In this document: piece by piece, positions 1-28,503 of the stretch | Layout of the letters: each line of letters begins with the position of its first letter | How positions within the stretch are numbered: position 1 is the stretch's first letter | Assembly: GCA_948567375.1 (NCBI GenBank) | Contig: OX419755.1 | Span: 67,274,944 to 67,338,943 of the forward strand | Length of the DNA: 64,000 nucleotides | Origin: Lunularia cruciata | Lineage: Eukaryota; Streptophyta; Marchantiopsida; Lunulariales; Lunulariaceae | Direction of reading: 5' to 3' | Translations under genes and position numbers: made by a program | The notes under the pieces: model-generated | Seen by the model: only the letters and a program-made list of their open reading frames with translations | Databases searched by the model: none | What the model was told of the DNA's origin: nothing

Positions 1-38
1 GGAGCAAGGAGGAGCACTTTGAGCACCTAATCAAAGTC

Positions 39-1013: not shown

Positions 1014-1019
1014 AGAGCA

Positions 1020-2132
1020 GTGGGTAAGGAAGAGTCTATCCTACTCATAAAGGAGTTTCATGAAGGTTTAGTATGTGGAGGACACTTTGCAGGAAAGGTG
1101 ACTGCTTTCAAGATTCTAGATGCAAGTTACCATTGGAGAAGGATTTTCAAGGATTGTCTTGATTATTGCAAAACTTGTCATGTTTGTCAAGCTTTTGCTA
1201 GAAAGTCTACATCCACTCCACCACTTAGATCAATTCCATTGCTAGGACCTTTTGAGAAGTGGGGAATTGATTTTGTAGGTCCTCTCAATAGAACCCCAAG
1301 GAACAATCGGTACATTGTGGTAGTTACTGATTACCTTACCAAGTGGGTTGAGGCTAGACCATTGAGGGACAAGAATGAAGATGAAGTGGGTAGATTTCTT
1401 TATGAACGCATTATCACTAGGTTTGGATGCCCTTTGGAGTTGGTTTCTGATAGAGGAGGAGAGTTTACAGGAAGCATTACTACAGCCATGCTATGACATT
1501 TCTCTATCACGCATAGAGTAACTACATCCTATAAGCCAAATTCCAATGGCTTGGCAAAGAGAACCAATCAGACCTTGTGCATGATGTTGGCCAAAGATGC
1601 AGAAATAGAGGGGGCTAAACATCATTGGGACAAGAGGATTCATGCAGTTTTGTGGGAGTATAGGAAAACCATGAAGACTTCCACCGGATATTCTCCATTC
1701 CAATTGGTGTATGGTATTGAGTCTACCTTACTTATTCACTTTGATCTTCCTACCTTCCAAAGCATTCATAGGAGATTGAAGAAAGCACAAGGAAGTGATG
1801 CAGAGAAGTCAAGGAAGGATCAACTCATGGAGTTGGAAGAGGCAAGAGCAGTTGCTATGATTTGAGTGGAGCAAGCCCAAAGGAAACAAAAGGAGAGCTA
1901 TGACAAGAGGCAAGGCAAGAAGAAGGTGGAGCCTTTCAAAGAAGGTGATTGGGTAATGTTGTTTGATTCCATTCAATTCAAGAGAGTGCAAAAGAAGTTT
2001 TTGCCTAAGTACTTTGGACCTTTCATAGTAGAGAAGGTGTGGGGCAATTACACCTATGATCTCAAGGAGTTGGGAGGAAGACACTTTGATAGGATTAACC
2101 ATGATAAGTTGAAGATGTACCATAGAAGGTAG
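1020..2132 (+). pseudogene. Ty3 integrase with GPY/F module, broken by two stops
   Basis: The HHCC zinc domain is visible (GGHF...CKTCHVCQ). It is followed by the catalytic core with the first Asp (WGIDFVGPL) and second Asp (LVSDRGGEF). Two in-frame TGA codons (1494-1496 and 1863-1865) interrupt it, and the frame resumes unchanged after each. The third catalytic position, normally Glu in the G-x-x-E-R-x-N motif, reads GLAKRTNQ, so the Glu is Lys (GAG to AAG). Beyond 1866 is the C-terminal part with a GPY/F-like stretch (KYFGPFIVEKV), ending in a normal TAG at 2130-2132. The copy can encode no functional integrase. Confidence 0.85.
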
Positions 2133-5397: not shown

Positions 5398-5845
5398 CCT
5401 TCCATGCCATGCAGGGCGTAAACAATGTCGAGTTTTGCATCTACTACATATAACAACAACTATCAAACTCTTGGATGAAGTCATCCAACTCAATGTTACC
5501 CACTATACTAGAGTAAAGCCTAGGGCCTTTGGAGGCTCCATGTATCTTGTCCATGTCCCACAACAACGGTACGGATATGCCAAGTGCAATCTCAACTAAA
5601 TCAGCTCTTGTTTCAAACTCCAACTTAGAATCAATCTCCTCCCTCATTGGGAACTGAGATACATGCTGATATTGAGCACCACTCTGAGTAAACCCATTAC
5701 GTATTGTAGGGCTAACTCCTCTAGAATCCCCAAAGAACTCCGTCATGACAAAGTTATCGCAACTACAACCGCAAACTAGAACCACCAAATCCAACCACAA
5801 ACCGCAACCGCAAGTACCCCACCACCAAGTGCCAACACCAACCAA
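5398..5845 (-). pseudogene. gag N-terminus, DNMT-type Ty3 copy 1
   Basis: The likely start is the Met in VMTEFFGDSRGVSP at about 5746, because homology to the main copy is strongest from there. The protein continues through LELDD-type text (IELDDFIQEFDS) until the CC element junction. In this copy the reading frame is continuous where the main copy has a one-base frameshift near 24720. The upstream Trp/Cys/Gly-rich residues come from the low-complexity leader and are probably not translated. Confidence 0.6.
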
Positions 5846-6160
5846 GCACCACCAAGTGCCAAAACTAATGGAATACTACCCACTAATGTAACTCTAACTA
5901 AGACAACTACACTAGGAGCAATGGCGACCTGTAACCTTCCATCACAATGCGCATTTTCACGGTCTACAAGTCATCACTTCCTGCCTCACCGGAGAGAAAT
6001 AAAGATAGTCTGACTAGTTATCACTCCAACCTCACTACCAAGAGTACACTAGAGCACCAACATACAAACACGGTGCACAAACAAGAAGCAAAGAATGGAG
6101 GGGGTCCAATCACAAGAATGCTAAAGGAAAACCCTTCATCTCATAAATCAACACGGGACT

Positions 6161-6173
6161 AACTCTGTCACCA
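6161..6173 (-). other. Primer binding site of DNMT-type copy 1
   Basis: On the minus strand it reads TGGTGACAGAGTT, two bases after the CA end of the LTR. It resembles the initiator-Met tRNA primer site TGGTATCAGAGC and matches the equivalent site of the main copy at 25321-25333. Confidence 0.5.
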
Positions 6174-6175
6174 TT

Positions 6176-7098
6176 TGGCATTTGACATAATTGGAGTACC
6201 TATCTACTTCTTGAGCTACAAGGATCATTGAGGATTGGATCAAAGTTCTTCTCACCAAAATTTGACTTAAATCCTTCACAAAATTTGACATAAATCTGAT
6301 GTAAAATCTGACAAAAATCCCTAAAAATGGTTGACCACTAACTCTTCACTTGAGCCAAATTGGAAAATTTGGTTTCATCCAATCTCTAATTCATGAGGAT
6401 ATGCTCCCAACTCCAACTCCAATTTTAGTTTCTGAGCTCAACTTGCAACAAATTGGTCATGAGCTCAAAATCATAGCTATTGCTTGAAAATTACTTCTCC
6501 TTGGCTCCAAAGTTTACCAGCGCTTCCGCATACACACTCTCTCAGGGAAATATGAACTACTAGTTTGAGACACCATGATCCACCAAGGTTGGAGATACCA
6601 CCAACACTCATAGTTCTTGCACCCAATTTCCCCTTGACTCACTTCTCTGATGTAATCAGATCGTTTACAACTCAAATCAATGAAACTCAGATCAATACTT
6701 GATTTGATCCTCAACAACTTGCCAACAACAAGGCACTGATTACAATCAAGCCACACCTACTCTAACTAAGAGACTCCATATGATGCTTGTCGGCTTTCTG
6801 TCCACTCTAACCAAGAACTCAAAGGCTCAACATCAAAGAAGTGAGCTCTCTAGAGTTGCACTTCTAGGGTATACTCCTTATTTTGACCTAGGTCTCATCC
6901 CAATGATCTTGCTGATGGCACACCCGATGGTGTGGACGGTGCAAGTGACGGTGGGTTCCACCATGAAGTCAGTACTCTAAACACAAAATTTGACCGTCAA
7001 AAAGTAGTCTATGAGTAACTACCAAAATGCCTCTAACTACTATCATTGGAACTCCAATGTCCAAGCAATCTAGATGTGACATTACAAATAGCGTGACA
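6176..7098 (-). repeat. 5' LTR of DNMT-type copy 1
   Basis: It starts (minus strand) with TGTCAC at 7098 and ends with CA at 6176. It is shorter (923 bp) than the LTR of the main copy because it lacks the roughly 400-bp tRNA-like segment seen at about 25380-25760. Confidence 0.7.
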
Positions 7099-7775: not shown

Positions 7776-8130
7776 AACTGACAATAAATTCAAGTACAAC
7801 ACCAAGGTAAGAATTGCAGATTAGGTTGTTTGGCACCTTTGAGTAAGACACCTAAGAATAGTCAGTCCCTGGATGGAAAGTTTTTCATGAAGGTAGCCAT
7901 AGAGCAAGCCTTGAAGGGAGATGAGTCCCAAGATAGGAAGTCTGCTAGGAAAGCAGCCATGGAGCAAGCTTTGAAGAAATATGAATCCCTAGATGGGAAG
8001 TTTGTTATTGAAGCAACCATAGAGCAAGCTTTGGAGGAAGATAAGTCTGTTTTTTTTATGTTGTGGATCAAGCCAATTGCACAAGGAAAATCTGAGGAGG
8101 GCCAAGAGCAATGGTTGATCAGATCAAGCA

Positions 8131-9000
8131 ATGGTTGATCAGATAGTTCAAGAGTTTGCGGACGTGTTTCTAGATGATCTGCCAAAGGGATTACCCTCCG
8201 ATCGTGGTATGCCCTTCAAGATTGAGTTATTGCCAAGGAGTACTCTAGTGAGTAGACCAATCTATTGGCTCTCACCAAAGGAGTTGGAGGAGTTGCAAAC
8301 AACAGTTATGGAGTTGTTGGAGAAGGACTTCATACGACAAAGTACCTCTCCTTGGGGAACAATTGTACTATTTGTTCCAAAGAAAGATAGAAGACTTTGT
8401 TTTTGTATGGATTACCATGGGCTCAATAAGCAAACAATGAAGAATGCATATCCCTTGCCTCGGAGTGATGACTTGCTTGATCAATTGAGTGGAGCATGAT
8501 ACTTTTCCAAGTTAGATCTTTGCAATGGCTATTGGAAAATCCCCATCAATAGGGAGGATGTGCAAAAGATTACCTTTTACACAAGGTATGGGCATTTTGA
8601 GTGGAGAGTTCTACCTTTTGGGCTCACTAATGCTCCAACGATCATCATGGATCAGATGCATTGGGTGTTGGATGGACTATTGGATTGATACATGGTGGTG
8701 TTCTTGAATGATATCTTAATCTATAGCAAGATAGAGGCAAAACACATGAATCCTTTGCGAGAAGTCCTAAGATGACTACAACAATGGAAATTTTATTGCA
8801 AGAAGGTGAAGTGTGTCTTTTGGCAGAAGGAAGTTACCTTCTTGATCATAAAATCTCATTAGAGGAGATCAAGATCGAAGAGGAGAAAATCAAGGTCATT
8901 ATTGATTGGCCTACTCCAAAGGATGCTATAGAAGTACGGGCATTTAATGGATTGGCCAATTTTACCGACGGTTCATCCATTATTATGCTCATGTAGCTAC
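8131..9000 (+). pseudogene. Reverse transcriptase (element C), active-site Asp lost
   Basis: It shows the N-terminal [15 protein letters not shown], then [30 protein letters not shown] and LPFGLTNAP, in the usual Ty3 order. The catalytic box, normally F/Y-x-D-D, reads FLNDILIYS at about 8701-8730, so the first Asp is Asn. In-frame stops lie at 8497-8499 and 8686-8688, and there is a frame change near 8960. Confidence 0.8.
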
Positions 9001-9072
9001 ACCATTGACTGACCTCTTGGGAAAAACTTAAGCTTCCAATGGACCACCAAGCATGAAGAAGCATTCCAAAAG

Positions 9073-9480
9073 TTGAAACATATGGTGTCTTCAAGACCCA
9101 TTCTTCAACCATATGATCCTCAACTACCTTTTGTGGTTGACTTTGATGCTTCTAACTTTGCAATTGGAGCCATGTTGCAACAAGAATTCCAAAATAGACT
9201 ACATCCTATTTTCTTTGTGTCTTGCCGAGTAAATATGACTAAAAGAAATTACTCTGTTGGAGATTGGGAACAACTTGCAATATTATATGACACCAAGGTA
9301 TGGAGGCATTATCTCTTGGGGAAACAAAGGATATTGCAAATTGATCACAAACCATTGTTGCAAATCTGACACTTGGAACACATGAAGAGTTGACATTATC
9401 AATGGGAGGAGCAACTCCAATTTTTTGACATCAAAGTTGAGTACAAACCAGGTTGGTTCCATGTCATCCATGATGCTCTA
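9073..9480 (+). pseudogene. RNase H (element C)
   Basis: The segment holds VVDFDASNFAIGAMLQQ, then KRNYSVGDWEQLAILYD, the WRHYLLGKQ helix and IDHKPLLQI, ending near HVIHDALAQQ. This is the standard Ty3 RNase H order. Two stops follow the HKPL strand (about 9367 and 9390). Confidence 0.75.
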
Positions 9481-9499
9481 GCACAACAACCTGATTTGA

Positions 9500-10480
9500 G
9501 GTCACTTCCTCTCATCACGGTAGCAATTACAATGGTTTCAATTGACTCCAAGGTCCAAAATGAGTTTTGGTCAGCTCTACAACAAGATCCCTTCTTCCAA
9601 ATGGTACATGGTCATCTTACAACATGCAACAAGGAATACAACACCTTCTCCTTCAAGGAAGGTCTTTTATTCCATGAAGACCGGACCTATAATCCAGCCA
9701 AAGGTGATCTTTGACTTGTGTGCCTTCAAGAAGCCCATGATTTACCAATAGCTGGTCACATGGAGACGGAAAAGACCTTGGGTACCCTCCAACACCAATG
9801 GTGGTGGCCCAACATGGCATGAGATGTTTGGGAGTTTGTATGATCATGTGAGAGTTGCCAACACAACAAGGCAAATAACCAAAAACCAAGTAGACTCCTT
9901 CAACCACTCCCCATTCTATATACTCATTGGGAACATGTGAGCTTAGATCTCATCATCTCCTTGCCCAAGACAAAGCAAGTTCATACAACAATTGTGGTGT
10001 TTGTGGATAAGCTTAGTAAGCAAATCTATTTGGCACCAACGGTTGATATTGTGGATGCTCCAACCTTGGCACAAACCTACTTAGACAATATATTCAAGCA
10101 TCATGGGATGTTGTGTATACTCATCTCCAACCAGGATACTTGCTTCACTGGAAAGTTTTGGCAAGCATTCTTCTAGATACTCGATACTAAGCTTGCTTTG
10201 TCTACCACCTATCATCCTCAAACTGATGGACCAATTGAACTTGCAAATTGCACCTTGGAAGATATCCTTTGTGCCTTTGTCAACATTCACCATATCAATT
10301 GGGATGAATGCTTGTAGTTGCAGAGTTTGCATACAGGCAAGCACCAGATTCTCTCCTTTCTTTCTCAATTTTGGCCAAGATCCACTTGTTCTAGATTCCC
10401 TTCTTTCACCTCCTCCGTCTCATGTCCCTCATACTTCCACCTTCTTGACCACCATCTCCCAATCCCTCCAACAAGCCAAA
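9500..10480 (+). pseudogene. Integrase (element C), broken
   Basis: The zinc domain (GHMETEKTLGTLQHQWWWPNM, then CESCQHNKAN) is followed by the core. The first Asp is in HVSLDLIISLP, the second catalytic position reads SNQDTCF in place of S-D-x-D, and the Glu region reads TDGPIELANC. Several stops are present (about 9713, 9820, 9838, 10175 and 10316). The sequence continues as a C-terminal piece (FGQDPLV, SPPPSHVPHTSTF, LQQAKSYL) up to about 10480. The GPY/F and chromodomain found in the sister relic are missing here, having been replaced by LTR sequence. Confidence 0.75.
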
Positions 10481-10489
10481 TCTTATCTC

Positions 10490-10900
10490 CTTGTTGTGCT
10501 AGAAGGAAGCTTCTAGAAGCTTCCAACCAGCTTAGCTTGCATGCCAAGTAAGTGGCTTCAGGAAGGAAGCTTCTTGAGAAGCTTCCCAGTTAACTTGGCT
10601 TCACTCCAAGAAAGTGGCTCAAGAAAGCTTCTTGAGAAGCTTCTCAAGGGCCTTGTATGCTCCCTATAAATACAAGAGCCAAAGCTCATGCTAGGCATTC
10701 GGATTTTTCCCTCATTCAAGTGTCTCAATGTGAGCTTCCATTCTCCTATTTCTCTCCTTGATCATGGACTTTTACAACTAGGCTTCCTTATTCCTTACAC
10801 AAGACTTCCTTCCTACAAAAGTTCACTTACAAGACTCACTCAAGAAATCTGGATAAGGATTGTATAGATCTTGAGGCATTCTGATAGTGAATTAACTTTC
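10490..10900 (+). repeat. LTR-like sequence of element C with TATA box
   Basis: The region is full of short inverted AAGCTTC/GAAGCTT motifs (GAAGCTTCTTGAGAAGCTTC and variants), with a TATA box CTATAAATA at about 10663. A related stretch lies inverted at 48430-48830, beyond the chromodomain end of the sister element. That supports reading it as the family LTR. The exact ends are not clear. Confidence 0.55.
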
Positions 10901-14560: not shown

Positions 14561-16439
14561 CTTTTCATTTCTTGCAAAATTTCAAGCAAACTAAGCTCCC
14601 AATTCTAGAGCAAAAAGGTCACGTATTTGATCTAGAGTAACTTATTTTTCCAATGTGTTGCCCAATTTATTCACCATTTAGGTAGTAAATAATTACCTTT
14701 GGAATCTTATTTATTTCTCTTCCAATCTTCATCATCTTTGCTACCAAGAGATAAATAACTCCAAAGAAGATATAATTATAAAGAATCTAAGGTGGTTGTG
14801 CACTCCTTGGATTGATCAGTAAACTTCATGGAAAATAGTAGAATAGTAGAAATAGTAATCAAAGTGCACTTGATTTTATAACCATGATTGTTGAGTCATT
14901 GTCCACACATGCAAAGTCTTTGGTGGTCAAAATGGTATTTCATAGTAGTACTTTGCCTTGGTATCAATGGCATTAAAATTTCATATGGTCTTTGGTTCCA
15001 AAGATCTTTGGCTTCAAAGAATCTTTCTACTTAGCAACTTTGCTTTTGATCTTTCTTTGGACTCAACTTCTTTCTGATGATCCCTTTGTAGTACCTATAT
15101 CTTTGTAAATGTCTTATTTGTACCTTAGCCTACACAAATTTGGATTTGAAGAACACCCAAATTAGATTTCTTTTCTCTTGAACAAGAAAATAACTTCCTT
15201 TCTCCTCATAAAAAAACAGAAAACAAAACCAAATTTCCAGTTTTAAAAAGAGGTTAGGACCAAAAGTACCAATAATTTCTCCAAGACCTCCCACCAATGT
15301 CTGCAAAAGTGCTACAATAACTCATGGTCTTTTAAAAGTCCTTGCCAAAAACCTTACTTTACTCCTTGATTATTGCTCTCCTAAATTCTTATCTTGGTGA
15401 AGAATGTCCTACATGCAATCCAATGTCATGTTAGCATCTCCTTCATCACAATGTCTTGGACTCAAAGATAAATGTGCATGAATTAGCTTAATATTGATTC
15501 TATATACCTGAAATGTACTTGCAATCAAGTCTAGTCTAGGTAAAGAAAATATTTTAGTCCTCTAAATACTTGTTCATATTCTACTTTAAATCCTTTGTTC
15601 TTGAAATCAACATCTACTATTAATTCAATCCCTTGGAGAATTTTACATTACCTCAAATTCCACTCCTTGTGATCATTCCATGCATAGAAAGAGAATCTTA
15701 ACAGTCAAGTATGCATTTGGTTAATCTCAAACTCCTTATGCATGAGATCCCATGACTCTAGGAATTTTCCTCCTTGCAATCTTGGTCATTGCTTCTAGAG
15801 AGTAATTTCTACTCCTTTAAGGTTTTCCATATAAATGCCCTAAAGCATATTTCCTTATAGACTTTAGCAATGTTTAATAAACCATTTGGCCTTAGCAACT
15901 CTCTTATAGCAGCACACTTCTTCCTATTTTTGGTTTATAAAACACTCTTTTATTTTATAAATATTATAAATATTTATCAAAAATGATTTATCTACAATCT
16001 TTATGGCCAAAAGATAGCCTTTGTCATCTTGGATGTTCTTACAACATTTTAAGCACATCCTATGCAAATTGAAGAAATGGTGAAATTTGTAAAATATTCT
16101 AACTATCATGTAGTGTTTCCTTGAGCTTTACCTTACAAACTTCTGAAAAGTCTAGCCTAATCTTATAGTAGCTCTTCATGTTATTTCAAGTGGCTCATCT
16201 TAGAGGATAAATTACTATTTCTATGAAAATCTTAAGTCAAGATCTCAACCTTAGAATTCTTCTCAAATCAAGCTACTTCCTAAAACTTATGGATCTGCTT
16301 CACACAATCTGTCCAAGTTTTCTCAAGTATACAAGATATACAAGATCACTTTAAAAATATGTATTGAAGTAAAGGGTTTTTAGGTAAAATCTAGGTAAAA
16401 ATATACCTAGATTTGCTAGCATGATTGCAACCTTCTCTC
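14561..16439. other. No gene seen, AT-rich
   Basis: No domain, LTR terminus or RNA gene was recognised. Much of it is probably old transposon sequence. Confidence 0.4.
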
Positions 16440-16784
16440 TCTCCTAGAGAGTTTAAAATTTCCTTCTAGGTACACTTTGAAAGTGGACCAAGAAGGTAAG
16501 AAAAAAACTACATAACTACATAAATTTGTATATAACACTCCTTCAAGGCTTGAACTCTAAGGCACCTCCAAGACTCAAGATATCTCTCACAAAAGAACTT
16601 TATGAGAGAGCAATAGTTACAATGAATTGGATTATGAGTACCTTGTCAACTCTTATTTATATATTTATGAACTATTACATCCAAAAAATTACTAGTTATT
16701 GGAGTGACTAGAGCTACCAAGTAAAATGATACAAGCTCATGAGATTAATTCACAAAATTGTGTGGTCTAAGCTTTATCCAATAA
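16440..16784 (-). repeat. LTR fragment of the element A family
   Basis: The inverse complement aligns with about 2590-2800 of the element A LTR, including the TATATAAA-type block and the segment with CTTGAGTCTTGGAG. Both ends are eroded. Confidence 0.5.
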
Positions 16785-16893
16785 CTAAGTTGTTGTGCGT
16801 ATATACATCTCTACACAACATACATCGCTATCAACATCATACACTATAGAAGCACAACTCACACATAAGTCATACATAGACTCTAAAGTGCCA
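16785..16893 (-). repeat. 106-bp direct repeat, outer copy
   Basis: It is nearly identical to 17346-17452. Together the two copies flank the truncated 3' LTR of the DNMT element. On the minus strand the repeat begins TGTGGCACTTTAG and ends ACAACA, so it has TG...CA ends of its own. Confidence 0.7.
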
Positions 16894-16896
16894 CAA

Positions 16897-17345
16897 TAAT
16901 CAGATTGCTTACCACTCTCAACTCAACTCAACTCAGATCAGTACTTGATCTGTCACTCTATAAACTGCCAACAACTGGGCACTAATTACAATCAAGCCAC
17001 ACCCACTCAAGCATAGAGAATCCAGGTGACGCTTGCCGGCCTCTGTCCACCATAGCCAGGAACTCGAAGGCTCAACATCACAGAAGTGAGCTCTTTGGAG
17101 CTCACTTTGAAACTATACCCCCTAGACTCGAGCTAGCACTGAAACCCTAATGGTCCCGCTGACGGCACACTCGATGGTGCAAACGGTGCAAAGTGATGGT
17201 GGGCCCTACTGTAAAGTCAGTACCCCAAACACAAAATCTAACCGTTGGAAAGTAGTCTCTGAGAAACTACTAGAATAACTCTAACTACTATCACTGGAAC
17301 TCCAGTGTCCAAGCATCTAGATGCGGAACTACAAATGGTGTGACA
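16897..17345 (-). repeat. 3' LTR of the DNMT element, truncated
   Basis: It starts (minus strand) TGTCACACCATTTGTAG at 17345 and follows the 5' LTR closely for about 450 bp. It then stops near 16897, where the full LTR would continue for nearly 900 bp more. Confidence 0.8.
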
Positions 17346-17452
17346 GCTGTTGTGCGTATATACATTGCTACACAACATACATCGTTGTCAACATCATACA
17401 CTATAGAAACACAACTCACACATAAGTCATACATAGATTCTAAAGTGCCACA
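17346..17452 (-). repeat. 106-bp direct repeat, inner copy
   Basis: It lies between the purine tract (about 17455) and the TGTCACACC start of the 3' LTR. Because the tract abuts this repeat, the repeat could be the true start of the LTR. However, the copies at 7098 and 62661 begin at TGTCAC without it. Confidence 0.7.
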
Positions 17453-17620
17453 ATCGCCCCCCTAGCTGGCAATTAGGTCCCTCTAACTCCAGATAGCCAT
17501 CTACTCTAAGTATATGGTATACTCTCTAATGGGCAAAGATCAGGAGGCTGGGTGCTATGGAGCCCCATCGTAGTCGCCTGTCTGCAATCTATACCATATA
17601 AAGAATGATCTAGCTATAGG

Positions 17621-18210
17621 TCAAGTACATCTAGGACATAACCACTGTCCTTGAGGAACCACCATGAGGAGAGGAGTCATACATGCCATATGCCATCCTC
17701 TAAAACAACTATCACACATTAACATAGTAGCAACTCCACCAGAAGAGCTACATAACATACACCTCAAGCCTGCACGTACAAGTGCCAAGCTTGGGTCCAT
17801 AGTACCATCAATGTTTAGAAGGTGGCATGGTGCACAATTGCGCACATGATCCTTCCAAACAACACCATCACGTCCTTCTAACACAAGGACTTGAGATGGC
17901 AAAACCTCGTGCACTCTCAAGATAGTGCAGCTTGTAGAAACATTAAGAGTTGTCAGTGTTGTCTGCTGTAGATATACATAGTAGCCTAGATGAAATCAAC
18001 GGATTGAAGGTCTATAACCTACTCCTTGAATGGTAGCATAGCGTAAAGTATCTCTATGCTGAGCAATCGCCAAGTTCTCAAAGGCCATCAGCATCACTCT
18101 CCAAAAGATCTCTGCACGTTGAGAACATGCGCTCATCCATACATCGGGGTCATCCAAGTCCAAAACTACAGTAGCATCTCGACAAATGGCTGCAGGTAAA
18201 TCTGGATCTC
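17621..18210 (-). pseudogene. GPY/F module and C-terminal PHD finger of DNMT-element polyprotein
   Basis: After a stop following the integrase core, the same frame continues through a GPY/F-like module (YVYLQQT, ILRVHEVLPSQVLVLEG, about 17990-17860). It then runs into a PHD finger at 17761-17627. All eight zinc ligands are present in C4-H-C3 order: C54 and C57 (CMLC), C69 and C72 (CDSC), H77 and C80 (WHMAC), C95 and C98 (CPRC), counted from 17920. The Trp before the His and the WLCPRC ending are typical. A natural TGA closes the frame. PHD fingers read histone H3 tails, so here it may steer integration or bind chromatin. It occupies the place where chromoviruses carry a chromodomain. Two stops upstream inactivate this copy. 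Confidence 0.85.
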
Positions 18211-19075
18211 ATCCATAGAGTAGAAAGTATGGAGAGAAGGATGCTAAGGAGGCTTGCCGGCTGAACCAATAGCCCATGGACAACCAAGGTAATTGGAGAT
18301 CCCAATCTCCCAAGTGGCCTCTCTGCAAACCATACTTTCGCAATCCTCTCTTCACCGTCTGAACCACTCTCTCTGCTAAGCCATCTGCCTTAGGGTGATC
18401 TCGAGATGTAGGACGATGATCAATCAAAGCCTTGTCACACAAGACCTGAAACTCCCCCAAGAACTCTATACCCTGATCAGTCAAAACCTCAACTGGTGCA
18501 CCAAAATGACTAAGAACTTGATCTAGGAACGAGTACGCTGTCCCTTCACTAGACTTGTCAGGAAGTTCCACCAACTCAATCCACTTGGAGAAGTGCTCCA
18601 CCATCACCAAAACATACCGATGATGTCTCACAGTCAGCAATAAAGGTCCGGCAAAGTCCAAACTCCAACGGTAACCCAATCCCATGATAGGTAATGGGTG
18701 TAACTGTGGCGTAAGAGCATTGAATGATGCTCTAACTTGGTCACAAACCATACATCTGGCAACAAACTAATGTATCTTGGTCTGCATACCGTGCCACCAA
18801 TAATGACTCTAGAATAAGCTATATGTACGCTTTGCTCCAAAATGTCCTAGCTCCTCATGAGCATGACGGACCAACTGTGGTCTTTGTGCTGGAAGTGGTA
18901 CTACTCGCACTCTACCATCCTCCCATACACGCAAAAGGTGTCTACACTCCAATCTGAACCGTCCAGCTTGCTGAAGAACACGGTCTCTCTCCTTGGCTCC
19001 AACTGTGCCACCCACAACACCAGTGCAAAGATAGTCCATCAATAAGACATCATCATGAATGTCTCGCTGAACTGT
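18209..19075 (-). pseudogene. Integrase of the DNMT element, catalytic triad intact
   Basis: The zinc domain reads HAHEELGHFGAKRTY, then C-x2-C in ARCMVCDQ, with two stops in between (about 18810-18745). The core keeps all three catalytic acids: Asp in WSLDFAGP (18658), Asp in EVLTDQGIEF (18478) and Glu in GLAERVVQ (18373), with the usual roughly 35-residue gap between the last two. It would insert the cDNA into host chromatin. It is one base out of frame with RNase H because of an indel near 19075. Confidence 0.85.
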
Positions 19076-19650
19076 ACCAATATCTTCACTCTTGGATCTG
19101 TGACCTCAATAACTCCTCCTGTATGCGCTGAGAGAGATACCACCAAAGCCTCTACAAATATACACAGAAAGGCCGATGCATGCCAACCTGGCACCATCTC
19201 CTCATCTGTCTCACCATGCCAACGTGCTCCGGTCTGATCTTGTTGGCTGGGACATGGGTTTCTACTCAACCCATCTGCATCACGGTTCACCACTCCAGGT
19301 TTGTGAACAACCGTGAAATCATACTCCTGTAAAATCAAAGCCCATTGTGCAAGCTTCCTTGAAAGCTTGTCGGAATCCATCAACAACTTCAGCGGTTGAT
19401 GATCAATGATGAGAGTGAAGGGGTTACCAAATAGGTAACATCGGAAATGTGCTACTGCCCAAACTGCTGCCAAGCACTCTCCCTCATATGAACTATACTT
19501 CGCCTCCGCTGAATTGTTGGAGCGACTAGCATAGGCCACCACAAACTCCTTCTCCTCATCATCATGTTGGGTGAGCACCGCTCCAAGCCCCAACATACTC
19601 CAATCAATGTGAACCTGAAATGGTCATCCCCTGATCGGTCTCCTCAAAAT
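19076..19650 (-). pseudogene. RNase H of the DNMT element
   Basis: It starts at VHIDWSMLGLGAVLTQ with the first acidic residue. It continues with AEAKYSSYEGECLAAVWAV, FRCYLFG, TLIIDHQPLKLLM and ends HKPGVVNRDADGLSRNP, a complete Ty3 RNase H. A TGA at about 19622, of CGA type, separates it from RT. Its C-terminal extension runs into the integrase until the frameshift. Confidence 0.85.
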
Positions 19651-20700
19651 AGGAGCAGATATCAACCTCTCCTTGAGCTCTACAAAAGCTCTCTCCTGCT
19701 CATCTCCCCAACACCACTCTTGTGTAAGCTTGGTCAGCTTTGTCAAGGCCTTGGCAATGGCACTAAATCCTCTAACATAGCGGCAATAGAAGTTTGCCAA
19801 CCCAAGGAATGCTCGCACTCTGCTCACATCCGTAGGCCAAGGAATACGTGCAATAGCCTCCACCTTGGTCTGCTGAACACCAAGTCCTCCAGGGTAGATA
19901 GTGTGACCCAAATACTCAACTTGCTCGTGGAAGAACCTACACTTCCCAGGATGTAATTTGAGTCCATGAGATCTCAACCTCTCAAACACCTCCAACAATT
20001 GTCTCTCATGCTCCTCCACAGTAGTGCTATAAACCAAAATGTCATCAATATAGCACCAAGCAAAATCCAATCCAGCTAGGATCCTATCCATGACCCTCTG
20101 GAACTCAGCAGGAGCGTTCTTTAACCCAAATGGTAAGAACCTCCACTGATATAACACATCCTTGCCGTGAGGATCAATAGCCCAAAATGTTGTCTTGGAC
20201 TTATCCTCCTCCCTGATTGGCAATTGATGATATCCCGCTCAAAGATCCAAAGTACTGAAGACCTTTGCATGCCCAATTGCATCAAAAATCTCCTCCGGTG
20301 TAGGCATGGCATACCGATCAGCCCTAGTCTGTCGGTTGATAGGACGGTAATCTCCACATATCTGCCTATTTGTATAGTTGCCATGCGTATCCTTCTTGGC
20401 TGGCATCACTGTTGTTGATGCATACTCTCCATGTGAAATCTCCACCAAACCAGCCTCAAAAAGGCCACTACTCCGGTTCTGAATCAATGTCCTCTCCATC
20501 TCACTATATCAATAAGGATGTCAGAAAACTGGTGTGTCGCTAGTCAGCTCAATCCATATACCAGGTCCCTTCAGAGCACCTAAATCCTTCATATTGAAGG
20601 CAAAACAACTCGTGTGACTCCTCAAGAACCTCCAAACCCTCTATCTTTCCTCTCCAGGAAGCTTGGGTCCAAGATCTGGCTCCCAAGTATCCTCTGTAAC
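19624..20700 (-). pseudogene. Reverse transcriptase of the DNMT element, YIDD intact
   Basis: The order is complete: ICGDYRPINRQT, YAMPTPEEIFDAIG, VFSTLDL, then a TGA (about 20238, CGA type), then GYHQLPI, FLPFGLKNAP, the catalytic CYIDDILVYS (YIDD at 20052-20041), LHPGKCRFF, VEYLGH, VRAFLGLANFYCRYV. The catalytic Asp pair is preserved. The frame is the same as protease and methyltransferase upstream, so all were translated as one polyprotein. About 80 residues of linker (20734 to about 20510) separate it from the region after the methyltransferase. Confidence 0.9.
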
Positions 20701-20733
20701 TGTAGTAAGAGTGGAAGATGTGCTGACTAACTG

Positions 20734-22040
20734 CTACATTGGGCCCTTAGGAGCAATAGTGTCATGCTCCCGACCACTAGAGGTCCCAACCTCTATGTGA
20801 AAAACTCCCTCCACTCTGGCTGCAAGCTCCACACGTCCTCTAGTTGCATCCCATGTGGACCAAGGGTGTAATCTAAGTAGCCCATGCTCACCTAGATGGA
20901 CTCCAAGTAGACCACTCTCCCTAGTAGCTATTGGATGTGTCCCAAGAATGCCATGTCCACTTGGTCCATCGCCCCCAACATGTGCTTGAATTGTCTCGAT
21001 AGGCACATGGCTCACAAGTGTCCGAGTGGTGATGCCTATCAAGCGCATCCTACGTTGCTCTGCCAAGTCAAGGCTCACAATCCAAGTCAAACAGTTCAGG
21101 TCCATAGCCTGACCTAACACTTGATGCCTAGATGCCTCTGACAATGCTGGAACAGCGGTAATATCGGTACAAAAACCCATTGCCCGCTCTCTCTCATTAG
21201 CATTGGGCTCCACCAACTGCTGTAACTATGAGTCCCAAACAAGTCCAGGTCCTCCCTCTCAAAAAGCATGAGAGCCTAGGAAACTCATGAGTGTGGGAAA
21301 TGCGGCTCTAGGCTGTCCAACTAGGTTCACCACTGCCATAGGTGACCTATCAGCCACTACCACTGTTTGAGACTGACGCCCAACATCCAAGATACCATCA
21401 ACAAGGATGTGGTCAAGTCGCTGAATCCCATCATAAGCGCATTGTAGAACCTCTCTGGGTAAGAGGTTCATCCACCAAAGACAAAGACAATGAGCCCGTG
21501 ATCCCACTCTGGCTGCATCTAACAATACAGCAGGTCCCATCCAAGAATGGACCTGATGTGTACTCGCCACCACTCTGGTGCAAGAATCACCCAACAAAGG
21601 AACGTTCTCCAAAAGGTAAGTTGGAGAAACGGACTGATGAACCTGGAGATATCATAATATCCATAACATCTCCCAAAACACACTAGAATGAGGATCATGA
21701 AGACCCAAACCACGGCCCGCACGTGTATGTCCCTAACATGGCCATCCAAAAATCACCAAGTGAATAGGCCCATGTCTCTCTAGGTCATGTGCCCCCAGTA
21801 AGGAAATGTCTCCTGGTAGGGCCTTCTGGTAACCTCTGACTGCTGATATTGGTAATAACTCTGGATACCAATAGGCCAAGTGTGCCACATGATGTAGAGA
21901 GACTCGCCTAGCAGTCTTATCTCTCTCTACATACAAGTACCTCTGTACTCGTATACCCGCCTGTAACACCGCAACTAGTCCGGTGCTGATCCCACCAAAC
22001 AACTCCAATAGGCATATCCCCTCTGCTGGATACTTCCAAG
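20734..22040 (-). pseudogene. DNMT3-like cytosine-5 DNA methyltransferase domain in the polyprotein
   Basis: The domain transfers methyl from S-adenosylmethionine to cytosine C5. Motif I is LLELFGGISTGL (about 22010-21975), a SAM-binding FxGxxTG as in DNMT3, and YVERD follows as motif II. GDISLL then leads to motif IV, HLVIFGWPC, with the catalytic Cys at 21738-21736. Motif VI, LLENVPLL, lies at about 21615-21590. The motif VIII region reads AHCLCLWWMNL, where canonical Args are Cys. Motifs IX and X are ERERAMGF and LGQAMDLNCLTW, ending near 21066. Motifs run in the unrearranged I-to-X order, unlike plant DRM. Four stops lie inside: TAG 21735-21733 right after the catalytic PC, TGA 21654-21652, TGA 21261-21259 and TAG 21228-21226. 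It is in frame with protease and RT. The 110 residues after motif X are unrecognised. Confidence 0.9.
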
Positions 22041-22640
22041 CAATGAGTGTGGTATCCAGAGGTGTCAAAGCAATTGCCTCTGGAGGCTCATCCTCACACT
22101 CATCTCCTAATGGTATGAAGGCTCCTCTCCAAGCCTGCTGCACCAACTGATCTGCATGCTGCTGCAATGCCTCCTCTGAACTCCACAATGGAACATCCAA
22201 GGTGGATGGAACAATCCCACTCGTACTCCAAAGCCAAGTGATCTCCTCTGGTACTGGAGTATCCTCTGCATGGACATTCCCCTCCAACAAGTCACCAGGC
22301 CAAGTAACTGCACCACTGAAAGCTAAAACTGATGTTGCCATGGTCTCGGATTGTAGTGAGCCAAGGCTACCACTATTGAAGCATACTGGTAGGCAACATA
22401 CTCGTCCCTCACCAGACTGCCAACCCGGTCTATAAGAGGCTATCTCCTCCCAATAGTCAATGTTGAAACCCATGGGGTATAACACTGCTCCTCCAACTAG
22501 CACATCATATGACTCAGCTATCGTCACAATAGCCTGAGCTCTCACCACCGAGCTATCAGTCGGATGACCAGGCTGAACCAGGAAAACAAGTTCTCCACGT
22601 GTGATGTACTATGTCAAACCATCACCTAGAGATGTCTAGA
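22041..22640 (-). pseudogene. Protease C-terminus and linker of unknown function
   Basis: After stops just below 22642 the frame continues to ESYDVLVGGAVLYPMGFNID (about 22515-22460), the retropepsin C-terminal D-x-L-x-G stretch. About 145 residues without a known motif follow, Trp- and acid-rich, before methyltransferase motif I. The segment may be a regulatory or spacer part of the methyltransferase. Confidence 0.6.
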
Positions 22641-22641
22641 T

Positions 22642-23298
22642 CTAAAATGGACACTTCTCCACATCGGTCTTTCGTAACTCCAGACCGACAACTGCAGCCT
22701 TCTCCAACATAAGGGGCTGCGCACCAGAGTCTAACAAGACTCTCTGTGGTATATAGACCTTCCCTAAAGGTTCCACCAAACGGAAAATCCCCCTCTGGTT
22801 ATCCAATAGGACAACACCAGGTGTGAACCGCGCTCTCTCAAAGGCCGGTCTAGCTGGCAACTCCTCCAATCTAGCCGTTGCTGCCTGCCATAAACCATTG
22901 GTGGCTGAACGGATCCCATGCTCCTCAACCAAGCCAGCTCCACTACCAACCACCTCTGCTCTAGTAGTAGGAACTGCACCATCCCTACTCTCACACAACG
23001 TGGCAGCCAACCGGAACATTGGGGTTGGGTCAACTCCCAATGTAAACATGTCACTGGCTGAAAACAAAGGACGCCGCATAATCAGCTGAGCCGCTCCCAA
23101 CATCATGCTAGACTCAGTCTCTATAGTAGCAGGTGGCTGACTAGCAGGTAGTCCATCATGTACTCCATCACCACCTACCACACCTACACTGGGATGTCTA
23201 GGAACCATGGATGTTGTCTGCAATGCCTCAGATAGTGTGAAAGATTGGGGAAGTCTGACCTGTCTCCTAACCTCTCCTTGCTGTGGGTCCAACTCCAC
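22642..23298 (-). pseudogene. Retropepsin protease of the DNMT element
   Basis: The active-site strand QRVLLDSGAQPLML has the catalytic Asp at 22731-22729 and a standard D-S-G-A. It is followed by the hydrophobic VVGLEL strand. About 180 residues of low-complexity gag-pol linker precede it. It would cleave the polyprotein, including release of the methyltransferase. The frame ends at TAG (22644-22642) with further TAG stops just beyond. Confidence 0.75.
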
Positions 23299-23651
23299 TG
23301 ATGCCCCTCTAGGCTATGGAGCACGTACTGCACTCCTAGTCACTATTGCAGATGCATCCACTTGTACTGCTCCGCACATGAAGTCCAAAGCATCTCTATC
23401 ACCAACATATGAGATAGAAGCCTCAGCACCCGAATCTGATCTCCTCTAAGCAATAGCCATACTAGCCAATCTCTGCTCTAACTGCTCAATCCGAGTAGCC
23501 ATAGCTGTGTCAGAAGTAAGGGCAAGTACTGCACCCCTACTAGGTGTAGATCCTCTACCACCACCTCTACCACCTCGTCCTCCAAGAACTGGAGCTCCTC
23601 TACTACCAGCCATAGCAGCCCTACCACTCCATAACTCCGGGTGTAGGTCAA

Positions 23652-23790
23652 AACACCGGTCACTAGTGTGACCAAATCTGTGGCAATGCTCACACTGCCT
23701 TTGTGTTGGCTATGATGCACTAGAGGTATCAGGTCCGCTACCCTAAGTACACTCTCTCCTATGGTGAGGTCCACCACAAGTCCAACAAGC
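23652..23790 (-). pseudogene. Two CCHC zinc knuckles (nucleocapsid) of the DNMT element
   Basis: The first knuckle is CWTCGGPHHRREC (about 23788-23750), one residue shorter than the canonical spacing. The second is CEHCHRFGHTSDRC (23693-23652), an exact C-x2-C-x4-H-x4-C. Two TAG codons between them, both of CAG type, break the frame. The pair would bind the RNA genome. Confidence 0.8.
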
Positions 23791-24917
23791 AACACCACCA
23801 CTCACTGGCTACTGCTGACCCAAAAATGAGGGTAAGGGTCTAACTCCACTAGGCCCTCCACTCGCTCCATAGGATCTGGGCTGTCCACCCTGTCCTCAAA
23901 AACCAACTGGGCGTGGTGCACTCTACTACACTCTAGGAGAAGTCACAGCCATGGATGAGGTCTCCCTACCAAATCCAGATATCACCACTCTCTCCTCCAC
24001 CATATTGAGCTCAATATGCTCAACCAAACCAAAGACTACTGCCAAAGTGGGCGAAGTAGCTTGCAACAACGTAACATCACAAACTCTACGTCGTAACTCC
24101 CTGTCCAGTATCCCATCCCAAAACTGGACTGCCTGGGCCTCAATAACTCCCTGAGTGAAACTGATCAGCCACCTCATGCAAGTGTATGCCTTGCGTAGGC
24201 TCTCTCTAGCCTTCTGCTGGAACTCCTGCAAGCTCCTCAGCTTGTCAGTCCGCACTCCCTGGTAGTTTTGCCTCAAACATAGAAAGAACTCCACCATGGG
24301 GTTAAACCCCGGTACCACACCACCTCCTGCAGCGGTACCTCCACTCGTAGTAGCACTATCTCCAACTAGTGCACCTCCACTAGCTCCACCAACACTACTT
24401 GAGCTAGAACTCGTGGGTACAGCCGATCTACTCCTGGCCACCAAGCCTAAAGTGATGGAGACATAGTGTGGAGACCAATACTATCTCCATAACTCAATCT
24501 CCTCTAAATGAGCTCTCCTGAACTCATGGTAGTCATCCATTGGTAGACCCTCCAAGTGCTGAAACAACCCCTTCCATGCCATGAAGGGTGTGAACAAAGT
24601 CGGGTTCCGCATCTGCTGCAGATCATACCAACTATCAAACTCTTGGATGAAGTCATCCAACTCAATGGTACCCACTATACCAGAGTAAAGCCTAGGGCCT
24701 TTGGAGGCCCCATAAAATCTTTTCCATGTCCCACAACAACAGTGCGGACACACCAAGTGCACTCTCAACTGAATCAGCTCCTGTGTTGAACTCCAACTCA
24801 GAGTCAATCTCCTCCCTCACTGGGACCTGAGATACAAGCTGATACCGAGCGCCACTCCGAGTAAACCCACTGTGTACTGCAGGGCTAACTCCTCTGGAAT
24901 CTCCAAAGAACTCCGTC
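23791..24917 (-). pseudogene. gag capsid region of the DNMT element
   Basis: Homology to copy 1 suggests a start at about 24917, where copy 1 has ATG and this copy has ACG. The frame shifts by one base near 24720. The protein goes on with IELDDFIQEFDSWYDLQQM, a Ser/Gly-rich linker, and the capsid-like helical part (FFLCLRQNYQGVRTDKLRSL, ARESLRKAYTCMRWL, AVQFWDGILDRELRRRV). A TAG at about 24481 separates the first two parts. Confidence 0.75.
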
Positions 24918-25320
24918 GTGACAAAGTAACCGCAACAACAAACCTGAACCACCAACTGCAACCGCAAGTGCCCCACCAAGTGTCAACACCACCACGTGCC
25001 AACACCACCAAGCACCTCCCACTAATGTAACTCTAACCGAGATAACTACCCTAGGAGAAAGTGCAACCTGTAACCTGCCATCATAACATGCACTCTCACG
25101 GTCTGCAGGTCATCACTTCCTGCCTCATCGGAGAGAAACAAAGGTAGTTTGACTGGTCATCACTCCAGCCTCACCACCGAGAGCACACCAAAGCACCAAC
25201 GCTCAAAAGTCAGGGCACCTCACACAAACATGGTGCACAAATAGGAAGTAGAGAATGGAGGGGATCCAATCACAAGAAATCTAAATGAAAACCCTCCATC
25301 TCATAACACAACACGAGACT

Positions 25321-25333
25321 GACTCTGCCACCA
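25321..25333 (-). other. Primer binding site of the DNMT element
   Basis: The minus strand reads TGGTGGCAGAGTC, two bases from the LTR end at 25336. It resembles the initiator-Met tRNA site with two central mismatches and is matched by 6161-6173 in copy 1. Confidence 0.55.
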
Positions 25334-25335
25334 TT

Positions 25336-26668
25336 TGGCATTTGACATAAGAGAAGTTCAAATCTCAGTCCTAAGCTACCAGGCTCACCAAGAATGGGAT
25401 CAAATTGCCTCTACTAGCCAAAGCTACATGTGTATAGATAACAATGGCACAGTCACTATGACAACAAGTGAGGGTGGACCAGTTGGCTAGGGCACCAGTC
25501 TAGGAACAAGAGATCTAGGGGTCAAACCCTGTTGTGCACAATCTAGCAGGAAAGGTAGATTTTGCCAACCAATGACCAAGATCTACTTTAAACTAGCTAG
25601 TCTCACGCCAGCAAGTTGGCCCTTCTAGGCCTTTGTAGCCTCTCATAGCCCTATGCCTCGAAGCCTTGAAACGCCAAAATTCAGCCAAATGAGGCCTTTC
25701 TTGTTGCCACTTCGAACCTCCTCCAAAATTGGCAAAACTTTTCCAAATCTGCAAAACTCCTCCAAACTAGCGAAACTCCTTCAAATCTGGCCAAAATCTA
25801 ATGTAAATCCCAACCAAAATCTGACATAAACCCTAAAGATGGTTGTCCGCCAAATCTCCCGCTAACTTTCCACTTGAGCCAAATTGACAACACGGGTTTT
25901 TCCAAATCACAAATTCATGAGAAAAGCTTCCCAACTCCACCTTCGATTTGACTTTCTGAGCCCAACTTGCAGCAAATTGGTCCTGCCTTCACCTTCTGAG
26001 CTCAAAATCGCAACATTGCTTGAAATTTGCTCCTTCTTTGCTCAAAATTTGGCCAGCGCTTCCGCACACCGTTTGCCTAATTGCCAAATCTACATCAATC
26101 GATTGAGCTTCTGCACACTAGGGAAACACAGAACTTGAATCGAGCTACCAACGATCCACCAAGCTTGGAGATACCACCAACACTCACAGTTCCTGCACCC
26201 GATTTCCCCCTGACTTCACTTCTCTGATGTAATCAGATTGTTTACCACTCTCAACTCAACTCAACTCAGATTAGTACTTGATCCATCACTCTATAAACTG
26301 CCAACAACTGGGCACTGATTACAGTCAAGCCACACCCACTCAAGCATAGAGAATCCAGGTGACGCTCGCCGGCCTCTGTCCACCATAGCCAGGAACTCGA
26401 AGGCTCAACATCAGAGAAGTGAGCTCTTTGGAGCTCACTCTGAAACTATACCCCTTGGACTCAAGCTAGCACTGAAACCCTAACGGTCCCGCTGATGGCA
26501 CACTCGATGGTGAAAACGGTGCAAAGTGATGGTGGGCCCTACCATGAAGTCAGTACCCCAAACACGAAATCTAACCGTCGGAAAGTAGTCTCTGAGAAAC
26601 TGCTAAAATAACTCTAACTACTATCACTGGAACTCTAGTGTCCGAGCATCTAGATGAGGAACTACAAA
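25336..26668 (-). repeat. 5' LTR of the DNMT element
   Basis: It is 1333 bp, ending (minus strand) in GCCA at 25336. The start is eroded: the match to the family LTR stops at 26668, ten bases short of the TGTCACACCA terminus seen at 17345 and 62661. Beyond it the sequence is unrelated. Confidence 0.8.
25475..25530 (+). repeat. tRNA-like A and B boxes inside the LTR (SINE candidate)
   Basis: TGGACCAGTTGG (25475-25486) resembles a pol III A box. GGGTCAAACCCT (25518-25530) resembles a B box about 40 bases downstream. The surrounding segment is absent from the LTR at 6176-7098 but present at the right end of the window. No A-rich tail or target duplication was seen. Confidence 0.35.
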
Positions 26669-28503
26669 GCTAAGGACAAAGCTAAGGATTCTTTTCCATG
26701 AGCTTTCCTTGGACTTTGCAAAAAATCTGCACCAAAAAGACTTTTAGACCAAAGAGTTCTTTCCTCAAAGCCAAATATCTAAGAATGACAAAGATCCATT
26801 ATAACTAAATTCAATTTGGTGTTAGTCACTTTTTAAAACTCCTCTAAATAGGTATCATTTTGATCTTGGATTTGATGAACTCTAGCTCTCTATAGTTTAA
26901 CTTATTATTATAGAAACTAAAATAATAATTTTTAGTAGCTCACAATATTAAACTAGATATACTAATAGACCACAAATGATTCAATGGGCATTAAATCTAA
27001 TCATTGAAACACTCTTGGGCACATTGCCTGCATATTAGTTTGATGGTATTGAGTTAGTTACAACTTGCTAAGTTTAGTAATTACTAAGCTAGCTAAATGA
27101 GGACGAAAATCCAACATCTAATTTTTGGATACTAAATTAGATCTTGGGGAATTTGAAATATAGAGTGTAATATTATAATATCTCATTCTATATTAGAGGA
27201 AGATCTCTTAAGAGGAATTTTATATAAATGTGTGATAAAAGCACATCCAAGTGCATATTTACCTAAGATTCCTTACCTAGGATAATTTACATAAAGTGTG
27301 GATTTTACAAAATTTCTTAGGCATTTACTATGGTAATTATATAAGATGTTTATGGTAATTATATAAAGGCATCCACTCTTTAGTGAGCTTGGAGCAAGGG
27401 CTGAGTGAGAGTCTTTGCAAGTATATTTGCTAACTAAATAATAAGATATTTTACTTATGTGTGCTAATATTATGGTTGTAAATATTAAAGGAACCTTTAA
27501 CTCTAAAGGCCTCTTATGTGAGTGCAAGGGTAGGACCGTCCATATTAACATAGTTATAGTCTTCCCTCATGGGCCATCTTGGAAGAGCTTTGACATAAGA
27601 GAAGGAATGAGTGCTCTAAGGGAAAAAATTCAAAGACTTAGCAATTGAATGAGAGATTTCTTTTGGAATTGGTATATATGATGGTACTCACTATCAACTT
27701 GTTATTTGGTTTAGTATATTGTGTATAAAAAGTGTAATTAGAGATAACCTTGGGTGAGAGATAGGCTGATCAATTTCTAGTTATATTCCAAAATCATAAT
27801 AATATCGAGCAAAAATGTATATTTAATTTATCTAATTTAAAGAAAATGAAATATAATATAATATCTAATGATTTATCTAATTTTTTTGCTTTATCATCAA
27901 ATAATTTTGGTATTCAAAAACATGATACTTAAGGACCAAAGGCTACTCAAGATTAATTTTATAGTCCAAATTTATAAATAAAATAATTATTTTATGATTA
28001 TATTTCTTGATTATTGGTAATTTCATCATGCAATGTCTATTTTAAGGGATTGAGATGGTATTATAAAGCTTTTAGAATGTGTATCCAATAGACTTAAAAT
28101 GTACAAAACAAAGCTTAAATGTAAGTTATAATTTATATCTCATATTTCAATTTTTTACTTAGAATCATAATATTTAAGAATTAAATATTCCATGGATTTT
28201 ACTTGTTCTTTAATTAATAGTGATAAGGTTAATTAATGATTTTAATCTGTATATTCTTAAGATCTCTTAACACTCAACCCTAAAAGCCTTTGTATTGTAC
28301 TTCCATATTGAAATTTTATATTGTTGTATGCGTTATTGATGTTTCTAAAACAATGAAAATTAAATTGTTGGTCTATTGCATGCAATATTAGTTCTTCATG
28401 TTAAATTACTAGTTCTTTAAGTAAAAGAATCTCAAATAATAGTACCTAATTGCTTTCCTTTCCCATGTCATTTATCACTTACACACCTCCTCAAACATCT
28501 AGG
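26669..28503. other. No gene seen, strongly AT-rich
   Basis: No domain or LTR terminus was recognised. A 20-bp tandem pair (TATGGTAATTATATAA) lies at about 27328-27366. Confidence 0.4.

Follow-up and report, generated by a model that had tools for sequence, protein, structure and literature searches.

The closest described counterpart of the element reported here is KnitGypsy-Dnmt3 of the charophyte Klebsormidium nitens, in which, according to the available parts of the original paper, a methyltransferase domain is located in the Pol ORF, evolves under purifying selection and is accompanied by DIRS-like repeats (PMC5890265). The available text also states that the K. nitens enzyme produced no methylation in yeast, a result called inconclusive by its authors, and that Symbiodinium carries DNMT elements as well (de Mendoza et al. 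2018, PMC5890265). A 2025 survey, in its accessible sections, refers to de Mendoza for the presence of DNMT3 in streptophyte and dinoflagellate retrotransposons of the LTR (written Copia) and DIRS kinds (PMC12344493), and the portion of a 2019 review available to us describes methylase-encoding transposons as absent from land plants, such as tracheophytes (PMC6338049). In our literature search, which covered mainly open papers, no retrotransposon-borne DNMT of a land plant or bryophyte was recognised, and the available parts of six further papers (PMC6453930, PMC9516144, PMC8566409, PMC10952607, PMC5784723, PMC8616336) contain no mention of a bryophyte case. Split direct repeats, to which the termini of our element belong by layout, are presented in the accessible text of another report as a property of tyrosine-recombinase elements devoid of integrase and of target duplication (PMC4157794).

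The window, a stretch of 64,000 nucleotides of Lunularia cruciata, contains on its minus strand an element in which Gag, a protease with the DSGA signature, the methyltransferase and RT/RNase H are found in one frame, as seen when three frames of positions 16000-27500 were translated. The element begins with the 449-bp left terminal repeat A1 (26230..26678), delimited by its repeats and by the left ends of 18 other copies, and altered here in its outermost ~10 bp. ORF1 (20734..24770), broken in this copy, compared with the Marchantia protein P0004 and given with an approximate upper limit, encodes Gag, a CCHC motif, protease and methyltransferase. For comparison, 75 distinct retroelement proteins, gathered by methyltransferase similarity, were combined and searched with profiles seeded with the domains of the window; the profile of the Gag region (24082..24699) matched 39 of them, and that of the retropepsin-like protease (22450..22830, LLDSGAQPLML) matched 54. 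Asp_protease_2 was matched in P0002, P0172 and P0176, above the cut-off in P0176 only. The ORF1 stop, TAG followed by CAGTTA (20728..20736), which fits the UAG-CAR-YYA readthrough motif by comparison of copies and with a published consensus, is followed by reverse transcriptase and RNase H (19291..20658; Pfam and family profiles), in frame with ORF1. The DDE (rve) integrase (17960..18928) lies in a frame different from that of RT in the window copy, and a PHD finger (17627..17761; PF00628, E=5.3e-10) closes the integrase ORF, ORF2, which ends in CPRCT and a stop. The preliminary description had put the methyltransferase between a Ty3 retropepsin and RT; these flanks are indeed present, together with RNase H and integrase, and the domain proves to close the Gag-protease ORF ahead of the UAG, outside the RT ORF. 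Pfam searches at E<=0.1 yielded no chromodomain in the relatives P0176 and P0190 (the window stretch was scanned in pieces) and no recombinase among the matches of the same two proteins, and Rfam and tRNA scans of the window gave no match.

The methyltransferase itself occupies positions 21061..22032 of the minus strand, where it was recognised by frame translation, Pfam, PDB comparison and a family profile, and is interrupted by four in-frame stops. The strand given in the preliminary description was right; the frame it started at 22040 is full of stops, and the domain runs from 22032 to 21061. All the motifs named there (LFGGISTG, YVERD, GWPC, LENV, the VIII region, ERERAMGF and LGQAMDLN) were found in the canonical order in a single minus-strand frame. 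Frameshifts inside the domain were considered and rejected, the frame being continuous and interrupted by stops alone. The separate methyltransferase ORFs of the window copy gave no Pfam match, because the four stops interrupt the domain, and with X put in place of each stop the translated domain scored 17 bits against PF00145, below the cut-off of 22 bits. Thus, the Pfam test suggested for the window did not succeed on this copy, while four of the five relatives scanned passed the same cut-off (P0002 with 46.1, P0004 with 35.6, P0176 with 32.5 and P0172 with 46.5 bits); in the fifth, P0190 from Haematococcus, PF00145 was not found at E<=0.1, and the family profile does detect its domain.

The predicted relation to DNMT3 was borne out in PDB comparisons, in which human DNMT3A was the top match of the window methyltransferase (E=4.6e-8), followed by DRM2 (0.0073) and HaeIII (1.1). 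A profile built from 24 relatives gave a wider separation, with DNMT3A at 5.1e-20, DNMT3B at 4.7e-17 and entry 4onj, annotated as 'DNA methyltransferase' and presumably a DRM, at 4e-9, and weaker matches to HaeIII (1.7e-7), HhaI (1.5e-5), DRM2 (8.6e-5) and enzymes of the DNMT2 type (1.9e-4 and below). DNMT3 is therefore the nearest among solved C5 methyltransferases, with the qualification that DRM scores are handicapped by the rearrangement of DRM, whose order differs from the unrearranged I-X order found here. The catalytic Cys was retained in 40 of 41 type-A rows (the window included, the remaining row having a gap there) and in all 14 type-B rows, the two types being defined below. Motif IV reads PCQ, with ECQ or SC plus E/Q in some relatives; DNMT3A has PCN, the usual form in the DNMT3 class, and for this reason we call the domain DNMT3-like and not DNMT3. 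The proline of motif IV is replaced, with the Cys kept (GWEC, GWSC), in 12 of 14 type-B and 4 of 41 type-A rows, for example in P0176, P0178 and P0190. These data support the assignment of the domain as a DNMT3-like C5-cytosine methyltransferase predicted inside a Ty3 polyprotein. Depletion of CpG is no stronger in the methyltransferase region (0.36) than in the whole window (0.35), hence it gives no sign of special methylation of these copies.

The genome searched comprises 565.8 Mb in 74 contigs. A DNA search with the methyltransferase produced 6652 first-look candidates, of which 40 were scored, namely the window and 39 other copies at 94-95% identity. Twenty of these 39 were compared with the window element, and all 20 align to it, in blocks (>200 nt) of 89-96% identity, several of them gapped; one copy (L042) has an additional 371-nt block at 83%, and another (L055) is devoid of the stretch around the ORF1 stop. 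A pattern spanning that stop had 1042 exact matches in the genome, and none when reversed as a control; the family thus comprises about a thousand or more copies. Intact copies, which the preliminary description had recommended to look for, are found in part: the methyltransferase frame is stop-free in 6 of the 20 other copies (the window and the remaining 14 have at least one stop), ORF1 is open across the examined stretch in just one of 20, and ORF2 stays open as far as the PHD finger is encoded in one of 20, the sequence compared stopping short of that point for half of the copies. Among 123 scored genomic places matching PF00145, open frames reach up to 1428 codons. Within the window, a second copy of the same family begins at 62661-64000 (+) with an A repeat and leader and is cut by the window end, and a truncated relative at 5395-7067 (-) retains the Gag start, leader and pieces of terminal repeat, 75-88% alike.

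Two trivial readings of the window copy were weighed. One is that two loci were joined in assembly, or that a methyltransferase gene happened to insert into a single Ty3 copy. The stops and the frame change of the window copy would fit such an accident; against it, alignment over the region was obtained for all 20 other copies, the junction is matched 1042 times genome-wide, the same domain order is found in Marchantia and Sphagnum proteins, and in Calypogeia the protease precedes the methyltransferase. The assembly join, named in advance as what could overturn the assignment, was rejected on the copy alignments and junction matches, and we regard this whole reading as practically inconceivable. 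The other is that the methyltransferase is a functionless passenger, as might be supposed from the stops in the window and in 14 of 20 copies, and from the neutral appearance of variants private to single copies. This question was addressed by counting variants among the 20 copies and the window, those present in at least three rows being taken as shared and those in one row as singletons, on the assumption that shared variants are mostly older than insertion and singletons mostly later; the commonest codon per site served as reference, and the count was limited to sites readable in at least 15 rows and to single-base codon changes, variants present in two rows being set aside. In the methyltransferase, shared variants comprise 28 synonymous and 21 nonsynonymous changes (omega 0.31, or 0.18 without CpG-type changes), as opposed to 24 and 77 among singletons (omega 1.34; Fisher p=1e-4 for the difference). 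The corresponding values of omega for shared variants and singletons are 0.24 and 1.07 in RT-RNase H (p=4e-5), 0.25 and 0.98 in the linker between protease and methyltransferase (p=0.02), and 0.35 and 0.92 in the protease (p=0.10), with a weak contrast in the Gag part that precedes the protease (0.64 and 1.04, p=0.43). When the methyltransferase was read in the two wrong frames, omega for shared variants was 0.67 and 1.86. The methyltransferase has thus been under purifying selection in this genome, and, with 0.31 against 0.24, it is constrained about as strongly as the polymerase. In view of this difference between shared and singleton variants, and of the motifs kept in distant relatives, the passenger reading appears highly improbable.

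A separate problem is the stop codon of ORF1. At position 20736 it is TAG in all 19 alignable other copies, and CARYYA follows in all 19 and in the window, while each of the other stops of the window element (20 tested of 23) is a stop in 0-8 of 18-20 copies. In the window element CARYYA follows one of 461 stop triplets in any frame, the one being the ORF1 stop itself, and across the ORF1 sequences of 21 elements, this stop apart, it follows 1 of 3078. With the stop codon left open in the pattern, 976 places were found in the genome; the first 100, which lie entirely on contig C1, comprise 95 TAG, 2 TAA and 3 sense codons, and among the first 100 TAG places, again entirely on C1, 90 fit CARYYA. 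RT lies in frame, 255 nt past the stop, in 18 of the 20 elements (the window included) whose sequence covers this part. The proteins of Marchantia, Calypogeia and other relatives terminate close to the equivalent position, and a few relatives continue into RT as one chain. The available part of a study of such signals gives UAG_CAR_YYA as the tobamovirus readthrough consensus (PMC3542737). The likeness to tobamovirus-type readthrough consists in a UAG followed by CARYYA between two in-frame ORFs; the difference is that here the predicted signal would part Gag-protease-methyltransferase from RT. The plant retroelement SIRE1 presumably has a comparable UAG-CARYYA between in-frame ORFs. Since the copies are close kin, conservation of CARYYA may be simply that of the founder's sequence rather than a result of selection on each base. 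If readthrough works, the methyltransferase would be made with Gag and not with RT.

The termini of the family are split direct repeats. The left end could be seen in 18 of 20 other copies; it reads TGTCACGCCA in 15 of them and TGTCATGCCA in the remaining 3, and its flanks are unrelated. At the right end, the polypurine-tract-like CTAGGGGGGCG (17455..17465) directly precedes B1, the internal copy of the right terminal repeat (17348..17454), which is followed by GC, by A2, the internal copy of the left terminal repeat (16897..17345), and by B2, the right terminal repeat (16791..16896), ending in ...ACAACA in the window and in ACRACA in general. Two copies of A and two of B, with A1 at the left and B1-A2-B2 at the right, were present in 8 of 8 elements examined, on which ground an ordinary two-LTR element with a damaged right end was rejected. 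A1 and A2 differ by 1.4-7.9%, and by 5.7% in the window. The ends are TG...CA, and an exact 4-bp target duplication flanks 4 of 7 copies (GGTG, TTGC, AACC, AATA); it is absent in the other 3, and the altered left tip of the window element keeps it out of this count. Four such duplications would arise by chance with a probability of ~8e-9, assuming equal base use and the ends as given. No canonical tRNA primer site was recognised by eye after A1.

The element thus has the PR-RT-RNase H-integrase order, the rve integrase and the TG...CA ends of Ty3 elements, and not the two full-length identical LTRs. As far as the available text on PAT and Ngaro elements allows comparison, the A1...B1-A2-B2 layout is theirs, whereas they carry a tyrosine recombinase, with no integrase and no duplication, in place of the DDE integrase, TG...CA ends and 4-bp duplication in 4 of 7 copies found here (PMC4157794). 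The sequence B1-GC-A2 resembles the element's own joined ends (GACA-GC-TGTC), which suggests that replication may pass through joined ends, both tips being rebuilt from this junction. Co-occurrence of split repeats and a DDE integrase raises the question of how cDNA ends are completed in this lineage.

The remainder of the window is of mixed content. At 39.1-41.1 kb (+) there is a chloroplast ferritin gene of several exons, joined by eye, whose best named matches are from Marchantia paleacea (79%), Riccia fluitans (77%) and Riccia sorocarpa (75%), with Calypogeia at 69%. These matches place the genome nearest to liverworts and suggest a thalloid one other than Marchantia and Riccia. By visual inspection of the translations, further Ty3 elements or relics are located at 3-2129 (+), 8119-10513 (+) and 62125-62631 (+). 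A repeated family with acidic coiled-coil-like ORFs is present at 2934-5292 (+), 50827-53191 (+) and 56711-58814 (-), and a ~210-bp unit occurs in three tandem copies at 59867-60477.

Relatives of the methyltransferase were found well outside Lunularia. A protein search retrieved 42, including one from Calypogeia fissa (66% over 99%), many from Marchantia polymorpha and some from two Sphagnum species, and a second search, started from a distant relative, retrieved 52 (query included), two of them from the green alga Haematococcus lacustris. The expectation that this locus would extend the published set of K. nitens and Symbiodinium was therefore confirmed, with land-plant relatives in Marchantia, Calypogeia and Sphagnum. 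The methyltransferase profile was found in all 75 proteins of the combined set, which was itself chosen by methyltransferase similarity, and two orders of domains are seen in it. In type A, Gag and PR precede the methyltransferase, longer chains adding RT, RNase H and integrase, often with PHD; in type B, the order is RT-RNase H-methyltransferase-integrase-PHD, and 13 proteins, Haematococcus among them, have RT or RNase H ahead of the methyltransferase. PHD was present in 16 of 22 relatives with an integrase match. In P0177 and P0178, which have a complete integrase, the profile search did not match it, hence the PHD finger is not universal. Chromoviruses are Ty3 elements with a chromodomain on the integrase; our family resembles them in having a module like a chromatin reader after the integrase core, and differs in that this module is a PHD finger.

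Two trees were calculated. That of the methyltransferase comprises 62 rows, namely the window and the 54 of 75 relatives in which the domain is 90% complete or more, pieces of human DNMT3A and six methyltransferases from virus contigs. In this tree the window groups with Calypogeia, Marchantia and other rows (100/100), and type B is set apart by a branch (99/98), with some type-A rows as its neighbours. The end branch of human DNMT3A is 2.37 long and meets other long branches, and the DNMT3A pieces and the six virus-contig rows are the only references. The tree of RT-RNase H, with 18 rows and a different Ty3 element of the same window as outgroup, shows the same type-B split (100/98) and places the window with two Marchantia rows (100/100); the order of type A is not resolved there. 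As the same split appears in both trees, polymerase and methyltransferase appear to share one history, in the course of which the domain seems to have moved one or more times within the polyprotein.

The origin of the domain may be considered in the light of these relations. A virus as its carrier or source is not supported: 18 loci of the viral contigs match the methyltransferase profile, and profiles of Gag, protease, RT, RNase H, integrase and PHD remained unmatched in the stretches available. The comparison with KnitGypsy-Dnmt3 is less simple. In the available description, the two share LTR Gypsy domains, an unrearranged Dnmt3-type domain in a polyprotein and purifying selection (PMC5890265). 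The repeats of the algal element are reported as DIRS-like (PMC5890265), and ours are split direct repeats; its domain lies in the Pol ORF (PMC5890265), while ours is in a Gag-protease ORF closed by UAG-CARYYA, with a PHD finger on the integrase; and its host is an alga in which, by the accessible text, it has fewer copies than in Symbiodinium, as against a thousand or more here (PMC5890265). Our family has relatives in mosses, liverworts and a green alga, and the parallel with K. nitens is drawn from description. SymbioDIRS-Dnmt3, as far as described in the same text, is similarly a retrotransposon-borne Dnmt3 with two coexisting domain orders, comparable to our types A and B, and differs in being of the DIRS class with a tyrosine recombinase, in contrast to the DDE integrase and Ty3 RT of our family (PMC5890265). 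It is conceivable, and in our estimation somewhat doubtful, that there were separate captures of the domain, one by the Klebsormidium element and another by an ancestor of the family described here, the likeness between them being convergence. The 42 and 52 matches contain no Klebsormidium name, and the different position of the domain (in the Pol ORF according to the available K. nitens description, at the end of the Gag-protease ORF here) would agree with separate captures. On the other hand, both elements are, in the text available, Gypsy-type with an unrearranged Dnmt3-type domain, and the repeats reported there as DIRS-like may correspond to the split repeats found here; moreover, only the ~8000 candidates with most shared words were scored in each search, and many matches are nameless. 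To our knowledge, a combination of Gypsy type, DIRS-like repeats and unrearranged Dnmt3-type domain is unusual.

What the enzyme does in the element can be proposed in outline. Most ribosomes would halt at the UAG, a small share reading through to produce RT and integrase, so that the methyltransferase would be made in Gag-like amounts. It might then be packaged in the particle, where it would mark the new double-stranded cDNA de novo, most likely at CG, before or at integration; the pre-methylated copy would thus arrive in the genome with a mark resembling that of host chromatin. The PHD finger of the integrase would bind an H3 tail and steer insertion, and the B1-GC-A2 junction would preserve the joined ends of the element and rebuild both termini. 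Methylation of the element's own cDNA is our hypothesis. The enzyme might instead be kept for another substrate, such as element RNA or the DNA of the host or of competitors, or for tempering the element's own expression to mutual benefit. Selection shows just that the protein matters, with the enzyme on the Gag side both the packaged RNA and the cDNA would be within its reach, and the 2018 paper, in its available parts, raises RNA methylation (for a LINE-borne enzyme) and slower transposition (PMC5890265). The nearest relationship, to DNMT3 and far from the RNA-methylating DNMT2 type (5e-20 versus 1.9e-4 and weaker), speaks against an RNA substrate, and we consider these other targets a minority possibility. 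The family itself, a large one of Ty3 type with an ORF1-terminal DNMT3-like methyltransferase under purifying selection, UAG-CARYYA and split repeats, is established by these data; as to the role of the enzyme, we incline, by a modest preference, to methylation of the element's own cDNA.

As far as searched, the novelty of this family lies in its land-plant hosts (Marchantia, Calypogeia, Sphagnum), its reach to green algae, the apparent co-descent of methyltransferase and polymerase, the Gag-side position before a UAG of the leaky type, the PHD finger of the integrase, and the co-occurrence of split repeats, TG...CA ends and 4-bp duplications. The habit of bearing a methyltransferase seems to reach further among plants than would be supposed from the single algal case in print. 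Only tentatively may one go further and envisage a plant-wide lineage combining a Ty3 polymerase, DDE integrase and PAT-like split repeats with a DNMT3-like writer and a PHD reader, in which the writer, produced at the level of Gag owing to a leaky UAG, would methylate the element's own cDNA in particles, and would have descended together with RT since before the split of green algae and land plants (or spread horizontally), with one move within the polyprotein. If this were true, bryophyte genomes would have in these elements a permanent source of de novo methylation.

DNA methylation is a main weapon of the host against such elements, thus a methyltransferase that an element carries, that is maintained by selection in this genome and whose motifs are conserved in relatives from green algae to bryophytes, inverts the usual logic. 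Liverworts and peat moss have a cytosine-methylase version of what the available text of the 2019 review considered absent from land plants (PMC6338049). Surveys of DNMT genes in bryophytes may be counting transposons. The role of the enzyme is open to direct test, since relatives are present in the genetically tractable model Marchantia polymorpha.
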